Positions 4,139 to 47,066 of a stretch of 64,000 bases of DNA are shown here, piece after piece. The notes under the pieces were generated by a model, which saw only the letters and a list, made by a program, of their open reading frames with translations, made no database searches and was not told where the DNA came from. A program made the position numbers and the translations under genes. Within the stretch, counting starts at the first letter, position 1; every line of letters starts with the position of its first letter. This stretch comes from Bacteroidota bacterium (GTDB taxonomy: Bacteria; Bacteroidota; Ignavibacteria; UBA10030; UBA8401). The DNA lies in the NCBI GenBank assembly GCA_008933835.1, contig WBUG01000003.1, positions 1 to 64,000 of the forward strand, read 5' to 3'.

Positions 4139-4169
4139 AAAATATAGAAAAGAGTTCTCTGGCGTTCAA
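4139..4169 (-). promoter_or_regulatory. Promoter of ogt (TTG-N20-TATATTTT)
   Basis: Minus strand: TTG at 4169-4167, 20-bp spacer, TATATTTT (followed by G) at 4146-4139. One of the best matches to the recurring promoter. It lies about 30 nt upstream of the chosen ATG. Confidence 0.6.
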
Positions 4170-4353: not shown

Positions 4354-6603
4354 TCATTTCAGCAGCAGCATCTTCCGTGTGACCCGTCCCCCGCCGGCCG
4401 ATAGCGCACAGAAGTATGTGCCGCTCGGAAGTCCGGCCGCATCGAACCGGATCGTGTGCGTTCCCGCCTCCTTCACACCTTCCGCCAACCGCCCCACCTC
4501 ACGTCCGGCCGCATCGTAGACCGTGAGCGAGACGGGACCGCGGACCGCCAGCGAGTAGCGCAGTGTCGTGGAGGGATTGAACGGATTCGGAAAATTCTGC
4601 TCAAGTGCGAACGATACGACGGTACTCCGTTCCCGGGGACCCTCAGCCGACAGGAGCGGATGGGAGGTCCGGTACGTTGAGTATCCATAGTTGCTCGCGT
4701 CGTTCATGCCGATGACGGTGTACGGCCCCGACAGCGCCGCGGAGGAGACCCGCAGTGCGCCGAAGGTCGGGGGAAGGTCACCGGTGATGTCGTTCCACTG
4801 CGTACCGCCGTCGGTCGAGACGAACAGCTTCTTCGCCGACGTGGAGACGAAGAGACGGCTGCCGGCGGAAGCATACCCGCTCAGGTAGTTGAAGAACGCC
4901 GCTCCGGTGTAGACGCCCTTCCAGCTGTTTCCCTGGTCCGTGCTGACGGAGAGTTTCCCTCCGGCGGCGGTGGAACCGTACGAACCGGCGGCGAGCATTC
5001 CGCCCGCCGAAGCGAGGAACTGTACTGCGGCGGTCCCGAGGGAATCCTTCCCCACCGGCTGCCACACCGTGCTCGTATCGGTCCAGCGGTGCACACCATT
5101 ATTGGCGGACATGAACAGTGCCCCGTTATGGACCACGAGCCGGTGGATATCGGCGGTGCTCCACCCGGCGTTCATCGCGCTCCATGTGTGGCCGGAATCC
5201 TGACTCCGCTGCACTCCGCTCCCCTTCACGCCGGCGTACCACGCCGTGCCCCATTTCACGACGGCCGAGACCGTCTTCCCGTACATGAACTGTGCGTTGG
5301 ACGGGTAACGCCATGTGCGGCCGCGGTCGAACGAACGCGCCACACCGCTGCCGGCCGTTCCGGCGAAGAGCGTGTCGCCGGAGAGCGCGAGCGCGTTGAA
5401 GTTGATGGTGTATCCCAGACCGCCGGAGGACTGCGACCAGGTCGCGGCGCCGTCGCCGCTGCGCAGCAGACCCCACCGGTTGGCGGCGGCATAGACGGTG
5501 TCGCCGTCGGTCAGCATCGCGTTCACATACACCCGCGCCGGCAGTCCTCGTCCGAACGGATGGAACGAAACGCCGCCGTCGAGACTGCGGTGAAGCCCGA
5601 GCAGACCGAGTCCGGCGAACATCTGTCCGTTCACCGTGCACAGCGAGTTCAGCTGCGGTTCGGAGTATCCTGCCAACGACGGGATGGGATGCCACGTGGC
5701 GCCGTTGTCGGTGCTCCGTTTGATGGTCTCGGGAGCGTTGGAGAGCCCTGTCTGCGCGATACCGGCATAGATGCCCGCATCGGTCCATATCATCCGCGAC
5801 ACGGTCGGGATGCCGCCGTTCGGCGCGGTGAGTCCCGTCCCCGCATCGGTGACGAGCTGCCAGGTCTTTCCGCCGTCCACGGAACGGTGCGCCGTACCGA
5901 TGCCGTTCACCATGTACGAAAAGAGCGTGTCGTTCCGGGCGATGAGCTCCTTCCCGTTCAGGTAGTGCGTCCCTCCCTGGCTCAAGTTGGTGAGCACCAC
6001 GCTCCAGTTCTTCCCCTCATCGGTGGACTTGAACAGTGTATCGCTGACGATGTACATCACCGGGCCGTCCACCGCCAGACCGGTGAACTGGTTCTTGGCG
6101 ACCTTCGACGCGGTCCAGTTCTGTCCTCCGTTGTAGGACGAGTAGAGCACGTTCACGGAGTGGATGTGCACGCCGTTCGGCGTGACGTAGATCCGCCCTT
6201 CAGAGACGTACCCGGCGTAGAGGATGCGGAGCGTTCCGGGAGTGACGGCGGTCCACTGCGTGCCGGAGTTCGTGCTGCGGTAGAGCCGCCCCTGCGCCGT
6301 CGCGGGTTCAAGGTAGGACGCATAGACGGTGTCGTTCTTCACCGCCACGGAGTACCCGACGCCGTAGGTCCCGGACGAGACGGCCAGACCGGCGTTCACC
6401 GGCCCCCATGTTTCGCCGGCGTCCGTCGAACGGTAGAAACCGTATCCGAAATTACCGTTGCGGAGCGTGGTCCCTGCCAAGAGCGTTCCTCCGGAGGAGG
6501 CCGCGATATCGGTGATCCACACCTCCTGAGGACCGCGCGCGTCCCACGACTGGGCGGCGATGATGACCGGAACGACGAGCGAGATGAACAGCGGACGGAA
6601 CAT
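4354..6603 (-). CDS. T9SS-exported beta-propeller protein (BNR/sortilin-like repeats), 749 aa
   Basis: An N-terminal signal peptide (MFRPLFISLVVPVIIAAQ) is followed by many Asp-box/BNR-type repeats of the form S-x-D-x-G-x-x-W (STDAGETW, STNSGTQW, STDEGKNW, SVDGGKTW, STDNGATW, SQDSGHTW, STDQGNSW, STDGGTQW), as in sortilin/YCF48-like propellers. The last ~80 residues are a type A T9SS sorting domain: FALEQNFPNPFNPSTTLRY, LTVYDAAGREV and the basic end TRKMLLLK. The protein should cross the outer membrane through T9SS and be released or surface-attached. The repeats bind no recognisable substrate. It is last of three collinear T9SS genes (24 bp after the previous one), with a good AAGGAG ribosome site and a terminator after it. 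Confidence 0.88.
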   Translation of the reverse strand: MFRPLFISLVVPVIIAAQSWDARGPQEVWITDIAASSGGTLLAGTTLRNGNFGYGFYRSTDAGETWGPVNAGLAVSSGTYGVGYSVAVKNDTVYASYLEPATAQGRLYRSTNSGTQWTAVTPGTLRILYAGYVSEGRIYVTPNGVHIHSVNVLYSSYNGGQNWTASKVAKNQFTGLAVDGPVMYIVSDTLFKSTDEGKNWSVVLTNLSQGGTHYLNGKELIARNDTLFSYMVNGIGTAHRSVDGGKTWQLVTDAGTGLTAPNGGIPTVSRMIWTDAGIYAGIAQTGLSNAPETIKRSTDNGATWHPIPSLAGYSEPQLNSLCTVNGQMFAGLGLLGLHRSLDGGVSFHPFGRGLPARVYVNAMLTDGDTVYAAANRWGLLRSGDGAATWSQSSGGLGYTINFNALALSGDTLFAGTAGSGVARSFDRGRTWRYPSNAQFMYGKTVSAVVKWGTAWYAGVKGSGVQRSQDSGHTWSAMNAGWSTADIHRLVVHNGALFMSANNGVHRWTDTSTVWQPVGKDSLGTAAVQFLASAGGMLAAGSYGSTAAGGKLSVSTDQGNSWKGVYTGAAFFNYLSGYASAGSRLFVSTSAKKLFVSTDGGTQWNDITGDLPPTFGALRVSSAALSGPYTVIGMNDASNYGYSTYRTSHPLLSAEGPRERSTVVSFALEQNFPNPFNPSTTLRYSLAVRGPVSLTVYDAAGREVGRLAEGVKEAGTHTIRFDAAGLPSGTYFCALSAGGGRVTRKMLLLK

Positions 6604-6627: not shown

Positions 6628-8766
6628 TCATTTCATGAACATCATTTTCCGCGTGAGGGACGTTCCCCCGGCGGTCATGCGGATGAGGTACGTGCCGCTC
6701 GAAAGTCCGTGCGGCATGAAGTCGACCGAGTGTCCCCCCGCGGCGTGCGGACCGTCGGCGAGCACCGCAACGGTGCGGCCGAGCATGTCATGAACAGTCA
6801 GCCGGACCTCGGAAGGACGCCCCAGCGTGAACCGGATGCGTGTCGAGGGGTTGAACGGATTGGGATAGTTGTGCTCCAGTGCGAATGACGATGGTCCGAG
6901 AGTACGTTCTCCATCCCGTACGGCGGTGGTGACGGCCGCACTGCGGTACATCCCGCCGGACGTTCCGGCGAAGAGATGTCCTGACGCCGAAGCGAAGAGC
7001 GTACGGATGGTCGTTTGATTGTCGATGAGGCCGATACTGGGGAGGATCTCGCTCCATGATACGCCGCCGTTGGTCGAGCGGTAGACGATGGAATTGATGC
7101 CGTTCTTAGCGCCGCCGAAGAAGAGGTGCCCGTCCCGGTCCACCGTCACATGGATGCCGTACGGTTTCACTTTCTGCGTATCGATGCGGACCCAGTTCTC
7201 TCCCGCATCGGTGGAACGGAACAGTCCGGCGTCGCTGCCGCAGAAGAGGTCGCCGCCCGAAGCAATAGCGAGACTGTGCACCATCGTATTCCCCATGCCG
7301 TTCTTCATTTCGGTCCACGTGCTGCCGCTGTCGGTGGAACGCATGACACCCGATCCGGAGAAGGAGCGGAACGCGAACAAGCTCCCGTCGTCTCGCTGCC
7401 GCAGGAAGGTCGCCGGCGTGTTGGAGACCTTTGTCCAAACTTTGCCGTGGTCCATGCTGCGGAAAATGCCGGTACTGGTTGCAGCGATGATGGAAGCGAA
7501 CTTCGTTCCGAGGACCGCATTGACGTAACCGCTGAGGACGGTGATGCCTGAAATGGCCTTGAAGGTCGCCCCCTGGTCCGTCGAGCGGAAGAGCTTCGCG
7601 GGATAGAAATTGTCCCCCACGATGATGGTGTCGCCGTGGAATCCCACGGAGGGGACCCCGTTCACACCGGTGTTGAGGTGCTTCCAGGTCGTCCCGTTAT
7701 CGGTGGTACGATAGAGGTTCTGGTAGGCGCTTCCGCCGGCGGCGACGTACACTTCTCCGTTCGCCCGTTCGGTGAACGCGGTGACGTTCGGATACGCGAC
7801 CGGAAGCGGTTTCCAGGTCGCACCATTGTCGGTCGAACGGTAGGTCTGGTCCTGCGACAGGAAGAGATGTCCCTGTGCGTTGACATGGATACCGGAGAAT
7901 CCGAAGGAAGGGGTCTGGAGCGGTGCCCAGGTCGCGCCGTTGTCGGTGGAGGCGTGGAGCCATTCCGGAAGACCGTTGGAGGACGACATGCCGACGAACA
8001 CTGTTCCGTTCGGCGCCGCCGTGACATCGGCGATGTATGACGATGCGAACGCCGCGAGGTACCAGCTGTTCCCGCCGTCGGTGGACGCCCGCAGACCGTT
8101 CCCGGTCCGGACATAGAGGGTGCCGTTCGGATGGACGACGGCCTTAAAGATGGCGACGGAGTCGAGGCTGTTCGCCCCTTTCGTCCACGTCACGCCGGCA
8201 TCGGTGGAACGAAGCGCGTACCCCCGTTCCGGGTTCCCGTTGCTGCGGGTGAAGGCGTACCAGACCGAACCGTCGTACGTCGCCATGGCGGAGATGGCAG
8301 TGTCCGCTCCGAGCTGCGCGGCGCCCGCGGCTTTTGTGAAGTTCGTACCGTTGTCCGTCGACCGGTAGATGCCGCCGGTCGTTCCGACCACGACCACGCC
8401 GGAGGTGTTCGCCAGCACGGACGAGCACGATGTCTCGGTGATCCCATTGCCGACCACGGTCCAGCTCGCTCCGCGGTTCGTCGAGCGGGAGAGGCGCTGC
8501 TGGTTCTGCGCCAGGAAGATGTTCCCGGCGGGGACCACATGGATGTCCTGCACATAGTTCACGATGACCGCCGGCGACCAGCTCTCGCCGTTGTTCGCCG
8601 AACGGGTGAATCCGGAGTTCATCGTACCGAACACCGTGTCTCCCCCGCCGAACCGCACCTCGTTCAGCCCCACGCTGTACGGAGCGGTGCGGTTCCAGAA
8701 CGCCTGCGCGTGTGCCGCTGAGCCGCACATCACCGTCAACAATACCGCCGTCATCACTTTCATCAT
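6628..8766 (-). CDS. T9SS-exported beta-propeller protein (BNR/sortilin-like repeats), 712 aa
   Basis: The start is set at the ATG at 8766 (MMKVMTAVLLTVMCGSAAHAQ, a clean signal peptide), preceded by GGGGGAAG at a normal distance; a longer in-frame ATG at 8823 would place a polar stretch before the signal. The body has repeated Asp-box motifs (SANNGESW, STNRGASW, STDNGTNF, STDAGVTW, STDGGNSW, STDNGATW, STDQGATF, STDSGSTW, STNGGVSW). The C-terminus has FALEHNYPNPFNPSTRIRF, LTVHDMLGRTV and the basic tail TRKMMFMK, a T9SS type A sorting domain. It lies 53 bp after the 852-aa propeller gene and 24 bp before the 749-aa one, in a likely single operon. Likely role: surface or secreted propeller; ligand unknown. 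Confidence 0.88.
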   Translation of the reverse strand: MMKVMTAVLLTVMCGSAAHAQAFWNRTAPYSVGLNEVRFGGGDTVFGTMNSGFTRSANNGESWSPAVIVNYVQDIHVVPAGNIFLAQNQQRLSRSTNRGASWTVVGNGITETSCSSVLANTSGVVVVGTTGGIYRSTDNGTNFTKAAGAAQLGADTAISAMATYDGSVWYAFTRSNGNPERGYALRSTDAGVTWTKGANSLDSVAIFKAVVHPNGTLYVRTGNGLRASTDGGNSWYLAAFASSYIADVTAAPNGTVFVGMSSSNGLPEWLHASTDNGATWAPLQTPSFGFSGIHVNAQGHLFLSQDQTYRSTDNGATWKPLPVAYPNVTAFTERANGEVYVAAGGSAYQNLYRTTDNGTTWKHLNTGVNGVPSVGFHGDTIIVGDNFYPAKLFRSTDQGATFKAISGITVLSGYVNAVLGTKFASIIAATSTGIFRSMDHGKVWTKVSNTPATFLRQRDDGSLFAFRSFSGSGVMRSTDSGSTWTEMKNGMGNTMVHSLAIASGGDLFCGSDAGLFRSTDAGENWVRIDTQKVKPYGIHVTVDRDGHLFFGGAKNGINSIVYRSTNGGVSWSEILPSIGLIDNQTTIRTLFASASGHLFAGTSGGMYRSAAVTTAVRDGERTLGPSSFALEHNYPNPFNPSTRIRFTLGRPSEVRLTVHDMLGRTVAVLADGPHAAGGHSVDFMPHGLSSGTYLIRMTAGGTSLTRKMMFMK

Positions 8767-8819
8767 CGTATCACTTCCCCCAGTGTTGGTCCAAGGATCG
8801 CAGCGCCGGACGGGCTGCC

Positions 8820-11378
8820 TCATTTCAACAGCATCATCTTCCGCGTGAGGTCCACCGCTCCGGCCTGCAGCCGGCAGAAGTACAGGCCGGACGAGAGTCC
8901 CTGCGCATGGAACGCCGCTTCGTACGTGCCGGCCTCCATCTCCCCTTCGGTGAGCGTCGCCACCTTCCGGCCGACCACGTCATACACCGAAAGAGTCACC
9001 TTCGACGCCGCCGGCACGGAGAACCGGATGACGGTCGAAGGATTGAAGGGATTGGGATAGTTCTGCTGCAGGATGAATCCCTCGGGTGCCGTCGTACGGA
9101 CGCGCTGCACGGATTCGAGCGCTCCCGGATCGTTGATATAGGCGGCGAAGTTCTGCGAACTGTAACCGTCGATGTAACCGAAATATCCGGAGACGTAGAT
9201 GTTCCCCCGTGTATCGGCGCGGGCCATCGCCATGTCCTGCTGGAAGCTGCTGGTCGCCGTGCCGAGGTTCTCCCACGTGGTGCCGTTCCAGCGGGCGAAG
9301 TATTTGTAGGCGGCGTTGCCGCCGATGGAGGTGAACTTCCCGACGATGTACAACCGTCCCGACTTGTCCACCGCCATGTCCGTGATGCCGGACGTGTTCC
9401 CCTTCAACCCGAGCGAGACCGTGTCCCACGTACTGCCGTTCCATTTCGCGATGTGCCACACCGCCTTGGTGCCGATGGAATCGAACTTCCCGGCGACATA
9501 AAGGTCGTTGCCGACCACCGCCATGGCCGTGATGACCGCCTGTGAGGCGCTCTTGTTGTACCGGAACTCCGCTCCGCCGACGGACGACCACGCCGAACCG
9601 TCCCACCGCGCTACGGCGGATGCCGGCATGGTTCCCGCCGTGGTGAAGCTCCCCGCGGCGAACAGTTCGTTCCCTTTCACCGCCAGGGCGTAGACCGTTC
9701 CCTTCGATGCACCCGAACGGATACCGGTCCCGATGGAATCCCACGCCGTTCCGTTCCACCGCACGATGCTGTACGCCGTCTTCTGGTTCGGGAAGACCCC
9801 GAACGGCGCGTCGAACGAACCGGCCACGACGATGTCCGAACCGTACCGGACGATGGCGCGGACGTCCGAACCGAACGAACCGGGCTGACCGGGACCGTTC
9901 ATGCTCTGGAACGATGAACCATTCCATTTGATGACCCCCATGGAATTGACGCCGTTGAAGGAGGAAAAACCGCCGCCGATGTACAGGACGGTATCGTCGC
10001 TGGCGAGGGCGCGGACGGTGGAGGTGTTCTTGTAGCTGCCTGTGCCGACCGAATCCCACCGCTGACCGTTCCACCGCGCCAGACGGCGCGCCGGGGTGGC
10101 GCCGGCGTAGTTGAACTCGCCGCCGACGAACACGTCGCCGTTGGAACGTTCGTGGAGCGTGAAGACGGCGCCGTCCGGGAAACCGTGCGTGTTCTTCCCG
10201 ACGAGGGCGCTCCAGCGTTCGTTGACGATGTCGTACGACGCCGCGCCGGTCGTCCCCACGCCACCGGGGTATTTGAAGTCACCACAGAGCAGGAGGCGGC
10301 CGCCGGAGAGGATCATATCGTTCACCCGCGGATTCTGTCCGTACTGCGACGAGGTGATGCCGGTGCCGAGCTTCTCCCATGTTTTGCCGTTCCAGCGCGA
10401 GACCGCGTCCACCGTGCTGTTGGCCGACGAAGGGGCGCGCACGCCGGCGACGTAGACCCGTCCGAGGGAATCGACCTCGACCTGCGTCAGTTCGGTCGTC
10501 GTACCGGCACCGAGCGTGTCCCACGAACTCCCGTTCCACCGCGCGATGCAGTTGGCGATCTTCCCGCCCGCCCTGTTGAACGCTCCGACGACGTACAGCG
10601 TATCGCCGTGGACGGCGATGTCGTTCACATGCGCCCTCGCCGTCGTCCCGGACACGCCGGCCACCGAACCGGTGAGGCCCGTCGCCACCGTGTCCCACGT
10701 GCTGCCGTTCCACTTCATGATGGCGACGTTCTCCTTATCGAACGTGCTCACGGAATAGGTCGCCGAGTAGATGCGGCCGTCCGGCGTGACGGTGAAGGCA
10801 CGGTTGGTGACGCTGTTGTTGGAGTTCGCGAGCGACAGCGAACCGATCGAATCCCACGTGCTCCCGTTCCACACGGCCACGCCTTTCACCGAAAGGGTGC
10901 CTGCCTTCGTGAACGGCCCGACGACATACAGTTTTCCGTTCCGGTACTGCATCCTCGTTGGCGCGCTGAACGCGGACATCGAGTATGCCCCCGGCACCGA
11001 ATCCCATTTCGTACCGTTCCATTTGACGATTCCCCTTTTCGCCAATGGACCGACACCCATGTACGGGCCGGAGACGTAGACATCCTCGCCGTCACCCGCC
11101 GCCATCGCGACCACGGGGAACGACGAACCGTAGAAGCCGCCCGGAACGGAATCCCACCCGGTCGCCTGGCGCCAGCGCGCGAAGAAGTTCGTCCGGACAC
11201 CGAACGCGTAATCGAATCCGCCGCCGAGGTAGAGCGTCCCGGACGACGTCAGTGCGATGCCGGTCGGCACGTTATTGTTCGTTCCGTTCTGGCCGTACCG
11301 CAACGACCAGTATCCCTGTCCGGACAACGGCGCCGTCAGCACGACGGCGATCACGAGCGTCAGTATCGTTCGATTCAC
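8820..11378 (-). CDS. T9SS-exported WNG-repeat beta-propeller protein, 852 aa
   Basis: The start is a GTG at 11378 (product MNRTILTLVIAVVLTAPLSGQ, a signal peptide), because AAAGGGGGAG lies just upstream; an in-frame ATG at 11489 would begin before the previous small gene ends. About fifteen repeats of the type ARWNGSSWDTLG or VKWNGTKWDSVP alternate with LYVVGxFxxAG strands, a pattern of delta-60/kelch-like propellers distinct from the Asp-box repeats of its two operon partners. The end has ILQQNYPNPFNPSTVIRF, LSVYDVVGRKV and LTRKMMLLK, a T9SS sorting domain. It follows the receiver fragment by 13 bp and is the first large gene behind the sigma-54 promoter at 11620-11635. Confidence 0.87.
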   Translation of the reverse strand: MNRTILTLVIAVVLTAPLSGQGYWSLRYGQNGTNNNVPTGIALTSSGTLYLGGGFDYAFGVRTNFFARWRQATGWDSVPGGFYGSSFPVVAMAAGDGEDVYVSGPYMGVGPLAKRGIVKWNGTKWDSVPGAYSMSAFSAPTRMQYRNGKLYVVGPFTKAGTLSVKGVAVWNGSTWDSIGSLSLANSNNSVTNRAFTVTPDGRIYSATYSVSTFDKENVAIMKWNGSTWDTVATGLTGSVAGVSGTTARAHVNDIAVHGDTLYVVGAFNRAGGKIANCIARWNGSSWDTLGAGTTTELTQVEVDSLGRVYVAGVRAPSSANSTVDAVSRWNGKTWEKLGTGITSSQYGQNPRVNDMILSGGRLLLCGDFKYPGGVGTTGAASYDIVNERWSALVGKNTHGFPDGAVFTLHERSNGDVFVGGEFNYAGATPARRLARWNGQRWDSVGTGSYKNTSTVRALASDDTVLYIGGGFSSFNGVNSMGVIKWNGSSFQSMNGPGQPGSFGSDVRAIVRYGSDIVVAGSFDAPFGVFPNQKTAYSIVRWNGTAWDSIGTGIRSGASKGTVYALAVKGNELFAAGSFTTAGTMPASAVARWDGSAWSSVGGAEFRYNKSASQAVITAMAVVGNDLYVAGKFDSIGTKAVWHIAKWNGSTWDTVSLGLKGNTSGITDMAVDKSGRLYIVGKFTSIGGNAAYKYFARWNGTTWENLGTATSSFQQDMAMARADTRGNIYVSGYFGYIDGYSSQNFAAYINDPGALESVQRVRTTAPEGFILQQNYPNPFNPSTVIRFSVPAASKVTLSVYDVVGRKVATLTEGEMEAGTYEAAFHAQGLSSGLYFCRLQAGAVDLTRKMMLLK

Positions 11379-11391
11379 TGCTCCCCCTTTA

Positions 11392-11592
11392 TTATGGTTT
11401 TTCGGATGACGGCCCGCAGCCAAGTTCATCGGTCTCCCCCAGAATGAACTTGATGGGAATCTGCCGGCAGATCCTTCTCGCCGTCTCACTGTCCGTCGCG
11501 GTCATGACGCTGTATCCTTCCCGCGTCAGCAGCTCACGGAGCTTTCGAAGTTCCTGTGTGTTCTTGTCGATAATGAGGATGTGTTCCGGCAT
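11392..11592 (-). CDS. Truncated response-regulator receiver fragment (66 aa)
   Basis: MPEHILIIDKNTQELRKLRE... matches the first half of a CheY-like receiver: beta-1 ILIIDKN with only one acidic-pocket residue (Asp-9), helix 1, and GYSVMTATDSETARRI as beta-2/helix 2. At beta-3, where the phospho-acceptor Asp should be, it reads KFILGETDEL, and the protein ends 14 residues later. It therefore cannot be a working phospho-receiver. It is either a decayed gene or a small non-phosphorylated partner protein. It is the first gene behind the sigma-54 promoter and lies 13 bp before the 852-aa T9SS gene. No strong Shine-Dalgarno is visible. Confidence 0.55.
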   Translation of the reverse strand: MPEHILIIDKNTQELRKLRELLTREGYSVMTATDSETARRICRQIPIKFILGETDELGCGPSSEKP

Positions 11593-11619
11593 TGTTCGGC
11601 TTTCGCTTGCCGAAGATAT

Positions 11620-11635
11620 TGCAAAGACCGGACCA
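11620..11635 (-). promoter_or_regulatory. Sigma-54 (-24/-12) promoter of the T9SS propeller operon
   Basis: On the minus strand the 16 bases TGGTCCGGTCTTTGCA match the sigma-54 consensus (TGGCACG-N4-TTGCA) with the required GG-N10-GC spacing and a perfect TTTGCA -12 half. Transcription would start near 11609, about 17 nt before the receiver-fragment ATG. The next gene upstream encodes a sigma-54 activator, which supports the call. Confidence 0.65.
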
Positions 11636-11696
11636 GATTATCCTTAAAGGAACCTGTCAGGTGGAAGGATTTGAGGGAATTGAAAGGCGTGTCAGG

Positions 11697-11757
11697 CCGG
11701 TGTCGCACGGCGGCGACACCGGCGGTGAAAACCGGTGTCGGAAGATTGCGACACCGG
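11697..11757. promoter_or_regulatory. Four evenly spaced CCGGTGTCG half-sites: candidate enhancer (UAS) for the sigma-54 activator
   Basis: Two palindromes share one half-site: CCGGTGTCG at 11697-11705 and 11732-11740, and its complement CGACACCGG at 11714-11722 and 11749-11757. Half-sites start every 17-18 bp. They lie about 60-120 bp upstream of the -24 element, the normal place for bacterial enhancer-binding-protein sites. The second palindrome also serves as a possible terminator (next entry). Confidence 0.5.
11724..11757 (-). terminator. Possible terminator of the sigma-54 activator gene
   Basis: On the minus strand the stem CCGGTGTCG/CGACACCGG (loop of 8) is followed by TTTTCACC, 8 bp after the activator stop codon. 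The T-run is short, so termination may be partial. The same bases may double as a protein-binding palindrome. Confidence 0.45.
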
Positions 11758-11764
11758 ACTCAGT

Positions 11765-13483
11765 TCAGAGGTCGATGGAGAGTTGTGAAAGGAGTTTATA
11801 GAAGTGCGTCCGGTTGATGCCGAGGGTCTGAGCCGCTTCGGACTTGGACTTCGCCTGGCGCAGCACCCGAATTATATAGAGACGGCGGAACTCGGTCTCG
11901 GCCTCTTCCAGCGTTTTTCCGCCGTACACGACCGGTGCGTTCCGTTCGGATTCCACGATCTCCGGCGGCAGGTCTTCCGGTCCGATATCGGTCCCCTTCA
12001 TCAGCACCACGGCTCGCTGGACGATGTTGTCCAGTTCGCGGACGTTCCCGGGGAAATGATAGCTCTCGAGGACGGCGAGGGCTTCGGGAGTGATACCGGG
12101 AAGCCGGTCCGGCGCGTGTTTCCGGATGAAGAAACGGACGAGCTCGTCGATGTCCTCACGGCGGTCGCGCAGCGGCGGCATCGTCAGTTCGATGACCTTC
12201 AGTCGGTAGTACAGGTCCTCGCGAAAGGTTCCGGCGGCCACCATTTCCGGGATGTTGCGGTTGGTCGCGACGATGACCCGCACATCGATCTTCCGGGTCT
12301 GTACGCCGCCGAGCCGTTCGATCTCCCGGTTCTGCAGCATCCGCAGCAATTTCGCCTGCAGGTTCACGCTCATCTCCCCGATCTCGTCCAGGAAGAGCGT
12401 CCCGCCGTCGGCCAGTTCGATCTTCCCCGGTTTGGACCGTGTGGCTCCAGTGAACGCGCCGCTCTCGTATCCGAACAGTTCCGACTCAAGAAGGTCGTTC
12501 GGGATGGCACCGCAGTTGATGGTGACGAACGGACGGGCGGAGCGGCGGCTGTTGCGGTGGATGGCGTTCGCCAGCAGGTCCTTCCCCGTTCCGTTCTCGC
12601 CGAGCAGGATAACCCCCGCATCGGTCGACGCGATGCGCGATGCGACCTTCAGCACGTCGAAGAGCGCCCGGCTTCCGCCGATGATGTCGTCGCAGCGGAA
12701 CTCGCGCCGGAGGTCTTCGAACCGCATCACCGCGTCGGCGACCAGCTTCTTCTCCAGCGTGGTGATCTCGGACGAGATCTCGAACCCGCGGACGATCTGC
12801 CGTGCGAAGGAGAGCAGGTACACCAGGTCCGCCTCCGTGAATCCGTGCTCCCGGTTCCTCCGGTCGATGTACACCGCGCCGAACACCCGCGCTCCCGCCG
12901 CAAGCGGAACGCACATCGCGGCCGTGATGCCGAGCCGCACGATGCTGTGCTGCTGCGCCATCGCATCGTCGAACTGCGGGAACTGCGTCGGTTCGGACCG
13001 GGCGATGGTGTTGCGGATGACCGTCATGCTCATCTCTTTCGCGTCGGGGTTCGATTCCGGGTCCATGTTGCACGCCACCACCCCGTCCGGTCTCCCATCA
13101 CGGTCCGCCAGCACGATGAACCCTTCGTCCGCGCCGAGCTCTTTCACGACGGTCGTCACCGCCTTCTCCATCAGCGCCCGCATCTCCGTCTCGGAGGTGA
13201 AGAGGATACCGGAGGCGTAGAGGACCTCGTACTGCCGTTTCGCTTCGGTCATGCGCTCCAGGGAACGCTCGAGACGTTCGGCAGCGTCGAACGCGGTGTT
13301 CGTCTCGCCGCTGAGGCGACGGTTGGCCTCCATCACCTGGGCGAAGAGGCGGTCGAGCTTCTTCACGGCGTCGGCAGGCGCTCCGGCGCTCCGGAGCAGC
13401 GTGGAGAGCTCCATGAACTCCGTCGAGATCTGGCCGGTGGCGTCGCTGAGCATTTTCTGGAATCGCTGTCGTGTGTCCGACAT
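11765..13483 (-). CDS. Sigma-54-dependent transcriptional activator with GAF sensor domain (572 aa)
   Basis: Order of parts: a helical, coiled-coil-like N-terminus (1-85), a GAF domain (about 90-235, e.g. LGADEGFIVLADRDG and AGARVFGAVYIDRR), the AAA+ core (about 260-490) and a Fis-type helix-turn-helix (about 525-572, SEAAQTLGINRTHFYKLLSQ). The core has Walker A GENGTGKD (295-302), the sigma-54-contacting GAFTGA loop (342-347) and Walker B TLFLDEIGE. There is no receiver domain, so control is probably through the GAF ligand or by modification. The start is ATG 13483, 10 bp after the Ser/Thr kinase gene, which suggests one operon and the kinase as a possible regulator. A sigma-54 promoter faces the same way 130 bp downstream. 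Confidence 0.92.
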   Translation of the reverse strand: MSDTRQRFQKMLSDATGQISTEFMELSTLLRSAGAPADAVKKLDRLFAQVMEANRRLSGETNTAFDAAERLERSLERMTEAKRQYEVLYASGILFTSETEMRALMEKAVTTVVKELGADEGFIVLADRDGRPDGVVACNMDPESNPDAKEMSMTVIRNTIARSEPTQFPQFDDAMAQQHSIVRLGITAAMCVPLAAGARVFGAVYIDRRNREHGFTEADLVYLLSFARQIVRGFEISSEITTLEKKLVADAVMRFEDLRREFRCDDIIGGSRALFDVLKVASRIASTDAGVILLGENGTGKDLLANAIHRNSRRSARPFVTINCGAIPNDLLESELFGYESGAFTGATRSKPGKIELADGGTLFLDEIGEMSVNLQAKLLRMLQNREIERLGGVQTRKIDVRVIVATNRNIPEMVAAGTFREDLYYRLKVIELTMPPLRDRREDIDELVRFFIRKHAPDRLPGITPEALAVLESYHFPGNVRELDNIVQRAVVLMKGTDIGPEDLPPEIVESERNAPVVYGGKTLEEAETEFRRLYIIRVLRQAKSKSEAAQTLGINRTHFYKLLSQLSIDL

Positions 13484-13493
13484 ACTGTCCTCG

Positions 13494-16400
13494 TTACATG
13501 GATGCAAGAGCGTCCGCGAGCTCCGCGGCGGTCGCAAAACGTGAGGCCGCGTCCTTGGCCAGGCACCGCGCCGCCGCGGCGTCCCATGCCGGCGGCACCT
13601 CCGGTCGGAGCGTCGACGGCGGCGGCGGAACGGTGTTGAAGATGGAATGGATGAGCGCGATCTCGTTCTCCCCTTTGAACGGAAGCGTGTTCGTGAGCAG
13701 TTCGTAGAGGATGACGCCGAGGGAGAAGATGTCGGTCCGCGCGTCCACATCGGTGCTGGTGACCTGTTCCGGCGCCACATAGCCGAGCGTACCGAGCACC
13801 GTTCCGAGCGACGTCATGGTGGTCACCAGCGGTGATTTCGAGAGGCCGAAGTCCATGATGCGGACCCGTCCGTCGTCGCCGAACATCAGATTGCCGGTCT
13901 TCAGGTCGCGGTGCACGATGCCGGCGGCATGGACGGCGGTGAGTCCGCCGCACACCTGCCGGACGATCTCCCGCACTTCCGGCAGCGGGAGCGGATGCCG
14001 CTGCGCGAGACGTTCGCGGAGCGTGCCGCCGCCGAGGAACTCCATCGCGATATATCCGCGTCCCTCCGACTCTCCCGTTTCGTACACGGTGACGATGTTC
14101 GGATGGTCGAACGACGCCAGCAGATGGCCCTCCGCAGCGAGCCGGCGGCGGTTCTCGGGGTCGTTCATCAGTTCCGGGTTCAGGACTTTCACGGCCGCCG
14201 GGCGTTTCGTCACCGTGTCCGCCGCGCGGTAGACCTTCCCCATCCCCCCCTGACCGATGAGTTCACCGAGACGGTATCGGCCGATGTGCTGTGCACGGCG
14301 CCGTTCGTCCCGGACATGTCGCCCCCAGGCCGCCGCGATTCCTGTTCCTGAGGTGACGAGGAACGACAGCACGATGTTCGCGGCCGGAGCGGTACCGGAG
14401 AGCGCATAGACGAGAAGGAGGTGAACGGCGGCGGAGAGGCCGATGGTGACGGACGCGGTCGCCTGCCTCCGCAATCCCGCCGGGGCGGCCAGCAGGAAGA
14501 AGAGCAGGAGCGCCGCTGCGGTCAGGAGCGCTTTGGCGGATTCGATGCGCCAATCCAGCATCGCCGCTGCCCGGCGGACCGAAAGACCCGAAAGGATGAG
14601 CCAATGGAGATAGGCACCCGACTCACGCACGAGCGTGCTCGAAGGAACCGGCAGTATCGTATCACCGCTCTTGAAGCGGATTCGGACCGGCTCCTCCTTC
14701 CCCACGGACTCCGGAAGGATGACTCGGCGCGATGAGTTCGGTATCATCGGCGATGCGCCCTCTCCCACCGTTGCGTTCCACGGACCGGCGGTGACCGTGA
14801 TGCCGGTGCCGCTCCGGTTCCCGCGGTCCGGTTCGAGCCGCAGAACACGTGCCTCTTCCGGATCGAGGTTGTTGCGGTAGAGCACCGCACGGTCTCCGGT
14901 GCCGAGACTGGCGCGTGCGCTTCCGATGAAGAGGTCCAGATCGCCGTCGCCGTCGATGTCCGCGAACGACGGATTCCCGGCGAACTGGAGGCCGACCCGT
15001 TCCGACACCTCGGTGAACCGCATCCCGGCGGAGTTCAGGTAGAGTTTGGAACCAATGAAGAGGTCGAGCCGGCCGTCGTTATTGACGTCCGCCGCCGCCA
15101 TCATTCCGTTGGAGGGTTCCGCATGGAAGATCGTTTCGGTCAGACCGGACCGGGCTCCCTGTTCCGTGAAGCGGCCGTTCCCGTCATTGATGAAGAGAAG
15201 CGGCGGCGCTTTCTGACAGTGCACCGCGAAATCCGCCGCGCCGTCGTTGTTGAAGTCGCCCGGCACGGCGATGGTGGGGGCGATGTCGTTCTCCGCAATG
15301 TAGAGCGGCTGCGATGCGCGCCGGAACGTCCATCCGCCCGCGTTGAGGAAGAGGTCGAAGAAGGAGCCTTTATAGCTGACGTAGTACGGGAGAAGGATGT
15401 CGGTGCGGCCGTCCCCGTTCACATCGGCGAACGCGGCTCCGTACGATGCATGGCCGGTATGCTTCGAGATGCCTGCATCGTCCGTCACGTCGGTGAACCG
15501 CCCGGTCCCGTCGTTCCGGAAGAGCTGGTCCGGAAGGTCATAGTTCGAAATGTACAGGTCCAGGGCACCGTCGCCGTCCAGGTCCACGAACCGAGCGGCG
15601 TTCAGGCCGGACGCGTTCATCTCGCGGAGTGCGAGACCGGAACGTTCTGTCATATCTTCGAATCCGCCGGTGAGCGTACCGCGATGGAGCGTGAAGAGAC
15701 GGTGGTCCGCGATCTGCAGCAGATCCGTTCGGCCGTCATTGTCCACGTCGCCCGCCGCTACGGCGGATGGATCGCGCGGCGCTCCGGACAATCCCCGCTG
15801 CACGGTCACGTCCGTGAAGACCGCCGAGCCGTCGCTCTCATACAAGAGGTTGCTGCTCCCTTCGTTGAAGAGGAAGAGCCCGGGACGTTCGTCCGTCCCT
15901 TCGTCGAGGAAGAGCGCGCCGCGGCCGTGCCGGCGCAGTGACGAGGGACCGGTGACGTCCGTGAAGGAGAAACCGGTGGAGTTGGCAGTGGTGTAGATGC
16001 CGAGTCCCCCGATGATCCAGAGGTCTCTCGCGCCGCCGTTGGCGATGACATCGATGTCCGACAGGACATCATCGTATACGAGGATGGAGGGCTCGGTACG
16101 CCAGACTCCACCGGTACGTTTCAGCAGTGTCGAAGCGTTGCCGACGGCCCACACTTCGTCCGCGCCGATGACCTTGAGAGAGTTGAGCGTTTCGCGCGTT
16201 CCGGACTCTTCTTCGCTCCACTCTCTCCCGTTCCAGCGGATCACCGTCCCCCGTTCACCCACCGCCCATCCGTTGCCCGCATCGGCGAAACGGACCCGGA
16301 ACAGACTCTTCTGTGTCGGCGATGGTGTCCGTTCCCACCGGCCGTTCCGGTACCGGAGGATGACTCCGCCGCGTCCTACCGCCCATCCGTTCCCGTCATC

Positions 16401-17018
16401 GAGCATGCAGATATCGTTCAGGTCGCCGTCATAGGCGTTGACGCGGTCGTCGGTGAGCAGCGGGCTTGCGACCTCCTTCCATGACCGTCCGTCATTATGG
16501 AGGATGTGCCCCTGTTGGCCCACCATCCATCCTTTCCCGTCCGCAAACTGATGGATTCCTTTCATCATCACATGGTCCACGGCATCCCACATAATGACCG
16601 GAAGAGGGACGTCCCGCCGGCCTGCCGGGGAGAACGAGGTGAAGACCGGCCGGTATGCGCCGTCATGGGTACGATGCGTGACGAGGGAGATACCGTGCAT
16701 CGAGTCACGGCTGGCGATGAGGGGAAAATCGGAGTACGGGAAGTGATGGAGCGGCTGCCACTGTCCGCCCCGGAAACGGTACAATTTCCCGGAGAACTCG
16801 CGTCCCCTTCCCCGCGAGACGGCGATGCCGTCGCTGTCGGAGAACATCACGATGCGGGTGCCAAGGTCCACCGACGCCTGCCGGTACCACTGCAACGTGT
16901 CCGCCGCTCCTTCACGGGAGCGCTCTGTACGATCGTCCGGTCCGGAACAGCCTGCAGCGAGGAGGAGCATCAGGGGAACCGTCAGACGGCGCGCTATGTT
17001 CAATCCAATGCAGAACAT
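13494..17018 (-). CDS. Transmembrane Ser/Thr protein kinase with beta-propeller, FG-GAP and UnbV-like ectodomain (1174 aa)
   Basis: Starting at ATG 17018, a signal segment ends in a lipobox-like LLAAGC. The exported part begins with YCF48-like repeats (GNGWAVGRGGVILRYRNGRW, GNGWAVGERGTVIRWNGREW), then five or more FG-GAP/VCBS repeats with Ca-binding-like DxDxDG loops (VDLDGDGALDLY, ADVNGDGRTDIL, GDFNNDGAADFA, ADIDGDGDLDLF), then an ASPIC/UnbV-like segment. Three membrane helices follow, placing the last ~263 residues in the cytoplasm. That part is a Hanks-type kinase: GQGGMGKVY loop, AVKVL lysine, HRDLKTGN catalytic loop, DFG and APE. All catalytic residues are present. The start has no strong ribosome site; a TTG five codons later is an alternative. 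The kinase sits 10 bp before the sigma-54 activator. Confidence 0.88.
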   Translation of the reverse strand: MFCIGLNIARRLTVPLMLLLAAGCSGPDDRTERSREGAADTLQWYRQASVDLGTRIVMFSDSDGIAVSRGRGREFSGKLYRFRGGQWQPLHHFPYSDFPLIASRDSMHGISLVTHRTHDGAYRPVFTSFSPAGRRDVPLPVIMWDAVDHVMMKGIHQFADGKGWMVGQQGHILHNDGRSWKEVASPLLTDDRVNAYDGDLNDICMLDDGNGWAVGRGGVILRYRNGRWERTPSPTQKSLFRVRFADAGNGWAVGERGTVIRWNGREWSEEESGTRETLNSLKVIGADEVWAVGNASTLLKRTGGVWRTEPSILVYDDVLSDIDVIANGGARDLWIIGGLGIYTTANSTGFSFTDVTGPSSLRRHGRGALFLDEGTDERPGLFLFNEGSSNLLYESDGSAVFTDVTVQRGLSGAPRDPSAVAAGDVDNDGRTDLLQIADHRLFTLHRGTLTGGFEDMTERSGLALREMNASGLNAARFVDLDGDGALDLYISNYDLPDQLFRNDGTGRFTDVTDDAGISKHTGHASYGAAFADVNGDGRTDILLPYYVSYKGSFFDLFLNAGGWTFRRASQPLYIAENDIAPTIAVPGDFNNDGAADFAVHCQKAPPLLFINDGNGRFTEQGARSGLTETIFHAEPSNGMMAAADVNNDGRLDLFIGSKLYLNSAGMRFTEVSERVGLQFAGNPSFADIDGDGDLDLFIGSARASLGTGDRAVLYRNNLDPEEARVLRLEPDRGNRSGTGITVTAGPWNATVGEGASPMIPNSSRRVILPESVGKEEPVRIRFKSGDTILPVPSSTLVRESGAYLHWLILSGLSVRRAAAMLDWRIESAKALLTAAALLLFFLLAAPAGLRRQATASVTIGLSAAVHLLLVYALSGTAPAANIVLSFLVTSGTGIAAAWGRHVRDERRRAQHIGRYRLGELIGQGGMGKVYRAADTVTKRPAAVKVLNPELMNDPENRRRLAAEGHLLASFDHPNIVTVYETGESEGRGYIAMEFLGGGTLRERLAQRHPLPLPEVREIVRQVCGGLTAVHAAGIVHRDLKTGNLMFGDDGRVRIMDFGLSKSPLVTTMTSLGTVLGTLGYVAPEQVTSTDVDARTDIFSLGVILYELLTNTLPFKGENEIALIHSIFNTVPPPPSTLRPEVPPAWDAAAARCLAKDAASRFATAAELADALASM

Positions 17019-46823: not shown

Positions 46824-47066
46824 CAGTCAGACACATGAGCGAACGCCTTCACAAGATTGCGATTTCGGCTCATTCCATTCGCAAACCTGGCAATCCCATA
46901 GGATAAAAGGATAAAATACTCGGTATTTTCGCTCCCAAAGAATGGAACAGCTTTTGCATCATTTTCAATGATTTCGCCCATCCGGGCAGAGGAAGAGCAA
47001 CCGTTCACCACTACTTCAGGATCAGCGGACGCTTCGGCGGACGCGCAAACGTAAAAGGCAGGAACC
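46824..47066 (+). other. Long korA leader with a possible 23-codon ORF
   Basis: A clearly A/T-richer, gene-free stretch. It holds a short ORF (ATG 46835 to 46906, product beginning MSERLHKIAISAHSIRK) only 11 nt after the -7 element, and a 7-bp palindrome AAAATAC-TCG-GTATTTT right after it. No known riboswitch pattern was recognised. It may be a regulatory leader, a leader-peptide gene, or a decayed remnant. Confidence 0.35.

Follow-up and report, generated by a model that had tools for sequence, protein, structure and literature searches.

The locus lies in a window of 64,000 nucleotides, the whole stretch of DNA analysed here, and its genes are read from the minus strand. Furthest upstream is a gene for a membrane Ser/Thr kinase (about 13494 to 17009, the upper end being set at an in-frame codon). 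The protein carries a YCF48-like propeller and FG-GAP repeats at its N-terminus, two hydrophobic segments, and the kinase domain at its C-terminus. Its ectodomain matches the YCF48-like propeller family, which is found also in T9SS cargo genes close by. The kinase gene ends ten bases before a second gene (11765 to 13483) whose 572-aa product, by family searches and alignment, is a sigma-54 activator composed of an N-terminal region, a GAF domain, an AAA+ domain and a helix-turn-helix. The PF00158 match reaches 236 bits, and the protein has the attributes of an enhancer-binding protein, namely a sigma-54 interaction domain with GAFTGA, a Walker A motif and a C-terminal Fis-type helix-turn-helix. 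NifA (TIGR01817) was its best NCBIfam match, at 369.6 bits against a cut-off of 528.85, so that it does not belong to that family.

Downstream of the activator gene, beyond an intergenic region holding two palindromes and a 16-mer, stands a proposed operon. Its first gene (11392 to 11592) encodes a 66-aa half-receiver, followed by a propeller protein of 852 aa (8820 to 11378), a BNR/Vps10-type propeller protein recognised by family search (6628 to 8823, an ORF of 731 aa) and, as the proposed last gene, a BNR-type propeller protein of 749 aa (4354 to 6603). All three propeller proteins end in a T9SS type-A sorting domain (TIGR04183, PF18962), scoring 34.5-35.6 bits with TIGR04183 against a cut-off of 23. 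The original prediction spoke of a T9SS operon; this holds for the cargo, while the family search found no T9SS translocon or motor genes among the proteins of the operon. A SprA homologue is on another contig (C25), away from the window, which fits a T9SS in the source organism. A housekeeping-type element, TTG-N20-TATATT (4141 to 4169, minus strand), precedes an ogt-like gene (3598 to about 4104), and this element of its own suggests that the operon ends before that gene.

The candidate promoter is the 16-mer at 11620 to 11635, which reads TGGTCCGGTCTTTGCA on the minus strand. Direct reading bears out the predicted layout of GG at -24 (11634-11633) and GC at -12 (11622-11621) with ten bases between and a complete TTTGCA half, the -24 half being TGGTCC against an ideal TGGCAC. 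The predicted +1 falls at 11609, and the ATG at 11592 comes 17 nt downstream of it. Pattern frequency was rejected as evidence for the 16-mer because the count equals chance, TGG-N8-TTGCA with at most one mismatch giving 30 matches in the 64-kb window against 29.4 expected; exact TGGYNCN5TTGCA occurs 10 times across the genome and 29 times in the reversed control, that is, less often than in the control. What makes the 16-mer persuasive is its context, the activator gene and the palindromes, and not the bare pattern. An approximate sigma-54 matrix, based on the generally known consensus, gives 16 bits or more to only two sites of the 64 kb, and the 16-mer is one of them. The top-scoring sigma-54-like site of the window is TGGAACAGCTTTTGCA (46943-46958, plus strand, 17.9 bits). 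At a separate locus in genome G000 (L038, contig C47), two divergent TGGCAC-N5-TTGCA sites, at 8355-8370 on the minus strand and 8521-8536 on the plus strand, both lie some 700-850 bp downstream of another activator gene, one that bears a receiver.

It had also been claimed that housekeeping promoter elements, common in the window, are missing here. They are indeed enriched, with 4 copies of TTG-N19-TAnnTT and 8 of TTG-N20-TAnnTT in the window against 0.9 and 0.7 expected, and neither form is present between 11592 and 11765. A looser scan of the minus strand from 11593 to 11825, allowing spacers of 16-23 nt and one mismatch, gave no match either. Lack of an rpoN gene had been named as the result that would tell against a sigma-54 promoter; the source genome has one, with an intact RpoN box (ARRTVAKYRES), and rpoN was present in all 19 of the genomes checked.

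Between the activator gene, which ends 130 bp upstream of the 16-mer, and the 16-mer itself lie two exact palindromes of 22 bp, both GGTGTCG-N8-CGACACC. The proximal one (11699 to 11720) is centred at about -101 and the distal one (11734 to 11755), 35 bp from it, at about -136, and the two are conserved in relatives. Enhancer sites of this activator family are usually centred around such positions. No exact copy beyond this pair occurs in the 3.57-Mb genome, and among the matches with at most one mismatch in the source genome there is no second pair. Such matches number 28 in G000 against 44 in the reversed control, so that a genome-wide regulon built on these palindromes was rejected; because they are no commoner than in the control, we claim no wider regulon.

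Palindromes behind the 3' end of a gene might also be intrinsic terminators or RNA hairpins of the activator transcript, the GG-N10-GC being accidental and the operon being served by read-through from the kinase promoter or by another sigma factor. The arms do extend to CCGGTGTCG and CGACACCGG, TTTT follows the first hairpin, and sites resembling GG-N10-GC are frequent by chance. However, no terminator was called on the minus strand here, hairpins would need neither the pairing of sites nor a promoter, and the comparison with relatives argues against this explanation, which we regard as very improbable. Across many genomes the spacing of 32-35 bp is kept, as is a -24/-12 element at similar distance: in relatives two TGTYGC-N6-GCRACA sites with this spacing precede the half-receiver gene, and the -24/-12 element mostly follows the beginning of the proximal site by 56-86 bp. 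The enhancer-like sites accompany the half-receiver also where the latter is not next to the 3' end of the gene for the activator (the second site of G017, and G001, G007, G031, G060, G240, G290 and G296). The layout is kept where another gene than the activator precedes it, and likewise where the arms are short and AT-rich.

Half-receiver homologues of 63-76 aa were found at 19 loci, and their upstream regions allowed the arrangement to be counted. The pattern [TC]GG[ACT][ACG][CT]N5TTG is present on the sense strand of 16 of the 19 regions (shuffled sequences: mean 0.42, maximum 4) and on the reverse strand of none of them. By a strict rule, 13 of 19 have two palindromes spaced 32-35 bp (shuffles: 0). 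The shuffle figures overstate independence because the regions are homologous and the patterns were refined after the sequences had been viewed. Our conclusion is independent of the precise figures.

Orthologues of the activator occur in 23 of the 391 genomes of the class at 50-81% identity, the next best matches being at about 39%, and further ones are found in assemblies labelled Ignavibacteria, Bacteroidota, Calditrichota and one Deltaproteobacteria. GAFTGA and GENGTGKD are invariant among them and the C-terminal helix-turn-helix is nearly so, and in 24 of 28 loci the activator gene is preceded by that of the kinase. Several families of the class have the palindrome pair together with the activator orthologue and the half-receiver, and each of the seven genomes with a half-receiver among the 98 of the order also carries this activator. 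The half-receiver is not universal, since none was found at the Calditrichota-type loci L115 and L117. These associations matter for a second alternative, in which the 16-mer is a sigma-54 promoter driven by another activator while the neighbouring one acts elsewhere. The source genome does encode 13 full sigma-54 activator ATPases, and enhancer specificity is not something that sequence can prove; set against the co-occurrence in several families, the distribution within the order and the near-invariant helix-turn-helix, we give this alternative very little weight.

The half-receiver itself consists of beta-alpha-beta-alpha-beta only. It matches PF00072 over profile positions 1-46 of 111 with 20.4 bits against a cut-off of 30.2, and was not accepted as a full receiver domain: it ends after beta-3 (FILGE), where the phospho-acceptor Asp would sit. 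In the PDB the structural model (mean pLDDT 73) finds its matches among receiver halves, with a best E of 0.0095, and this half-fold aligns with receivers at a TM of about 0.7 of the query. Perhaps the frame is just a leader or relic and the 852-aa cargo protein the first real gene, as its mere 63-76 codons and a truncated receiver under the Pfam cut-off would allow; this would not conflict with the promoter reading. We nevertheless think it a very small chance, as the frame is linked with the activator in 19 loci, and its synonymous differences (0.72-1.01, near saturation) far exceed the nonsynonymous ones (0.11-0.34), a ratio by which the half-receiver is judged to be under purifying selection.

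In our view the 16-mer is highly likely to be a sigma-54 promoter that the adjacent activator turns on through the palindromes, the adjacent kinase being a probable switch. The claim that this operon uses a different sigma factor is supported in essence by the presence of rpoN, the neighbouring GAFTGA activator, the well-placed palindromes and the conserved layout. The motif, palindrome pair, activator, rpoN and conservation of layout are properties of the sequence; palindrome binding, the start site, phosphorylation, the signal and the role of the half-receiver are what we infer from them. On this proposal the activator would bind both palindromes (at about -101 and -136), the DNA would loop, and the AAA+ domain would open the closed complex of RNA polymerase and sigma-54. 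Opening would depend on the activator, and the operon would therefore stay silent as long as the activator is off. The membrane Ser/Thr kinase is the probable switch: a stimulus from outside the cytoplasm would be sensed by its propeller/FG-GAP ectodomain, and the target of its kinase domain would be the activator or a partner; that the kinase acts on this activator is suggested by gene linkage. Once active, the promoter would drive the half-receiver together with the three T9SS-exported propeller proteins. Being made from the activator's presumed own target promoter, the half-receiver might in turn regulate the activator or kinase, which is a guess, though it provides a concrete small candidate for a feedback partner.

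The genes that follow the half-receiver, judged by eye from their tails and signal-like N-termini, vary from genome to genome. The next gene is by appearance a T9SS cargo gene in G000, G017, G001, G007, G060 and G375, lipoprotein-like in G190, G167, G132, G361 and G296, and codes for a small barrel-like exported protein in G015, Ig113 and perhaps G031. In both G017 and G018 the unit of palindromes and -24/-12 element stands directly behind the activator and before a long T9SS cargo gene, and G017 has a second unit before another T9SS cargo gene. By the same inspection the frame after the half-receiver is not exported-looking in G123 and G196, and no exported neighbour was seen in G334; in G240 and G290 what follows the half-receiver is the activator gene. 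In related bacteria the layout recurs as a probable switch for the expression of exported surface proteins, with the reservation that not every locus has an exported neighbour. The lipoprotein-like proteins of the five loci are about 255 aa long and mutually alike, with a C-terminus resembling VKYNY...VKSVNVKVN.

Sigma-54 promoters, enhancer pairs and GAF-type activators are textbook elements. With NtrC/NifA-type activators the present unit shares the GAF-AAA+-Fis order, paired dyads about 100-140 bp upstream and GG-N10-GC, and differs in its site sequence (TGTYGC-N6-GCRACA) and its target genes. The remFG-sprCDBF operon of Flavobacterium psychrophilum, in the same broad phylum, likewise has a sigma-54 (SM4) promoter before genes for a T9SS-exported surface protein, one that was tested by promoter mutagenesis (PMC9723704). 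There, however, a second, SM5-type promoter contributes, and the parts of that report drawn on here describe no linked activator, kinase, enhancer pair or half-receiver (PMC9723704). A close analogue in design is the PEP-CTERM/PrsK-PrsR system, in which an activator-binding motif and a -24(GG)/-12(GC) element precede genes for exported proteins with C-terminal sorting signals, and in which the regulatory site and its activator have a common phylogenetic profile (PMC1569441). PrsR is a receiver-bearing response regulator that works with a histidine kinase on many scattered genes (PMC1569441), whereas the activator here has a GAF domain and no receiver and is paired with a Ser/Thr kinase, and the sites were found in its own neighbourhood. 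PorXY-SigP of Porphyromonas gingivalis resembles our case as a dedicated signalling pathway for T9SS-related genes; it differs, as far as the consulted portions of those papers go, in using a two-component system and an ECF sigma factor on machinery genes, and no sigma-54 (PMC4800418, PMC8265659). In the open-access literature we did not find the kinase-activator-half-receiver module with its enhancer pair described, nor anything relevant that links a Ser/Thr kinase to such an activator or FG-GAP to sigma-54. With activator, sites, promoter and targets all named, the regulatory unit is testable. It also suggests how a poorly studied lineage activates the production of T9SS cargo and further exported proteins, in agreement with the sprB precedent.

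The -12 element varies among orthologous loci. GC is intact in G000 and in the near relatives G017 (two sites), G018, G001 and G015, but the corresponding bases are GG in G007, GA in G031 and G060, and GT in Ig113, and in more distant families they are mostly GT or GA (TTGT or TTGA for TTGC, as seen in L132-L145). As the -12 C is replaced by T, A or G in distant orthologues, the full consensus is not conserved family-wide. Genome-wide matches to TGGCACN5TTGNA have the C in 4 of 11 cases in G000, 6 of 15 in G017 and none of 17 in three distant genomes. In the helix-turn-helix region of sigma-54, the SPRG of solved sigma-54 structures is replaced by TDFG in genomes of the near group and by SPQG in those of the AT-rich distant group. 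Loss of the -12 C may go with these changes, although counts this small, from genomes of differing composition, make the association suggestive only. A wider reading would join a FG-GAP/propeller kinase, a receiver-less activator and feedback by a non-phosphorylatable half-receiver into a three-part module, with loss of the -12 C over part of its range, perhaps alongside the sigma-54 changes. We hold this reading tentatively and as somewhat doubtful; if true, it would be an undescribed signalling module controlling local exported-protein genes. The -12 differences are themselves a natural experiment on how sigma-54 recognises the base beside the DNA fork.
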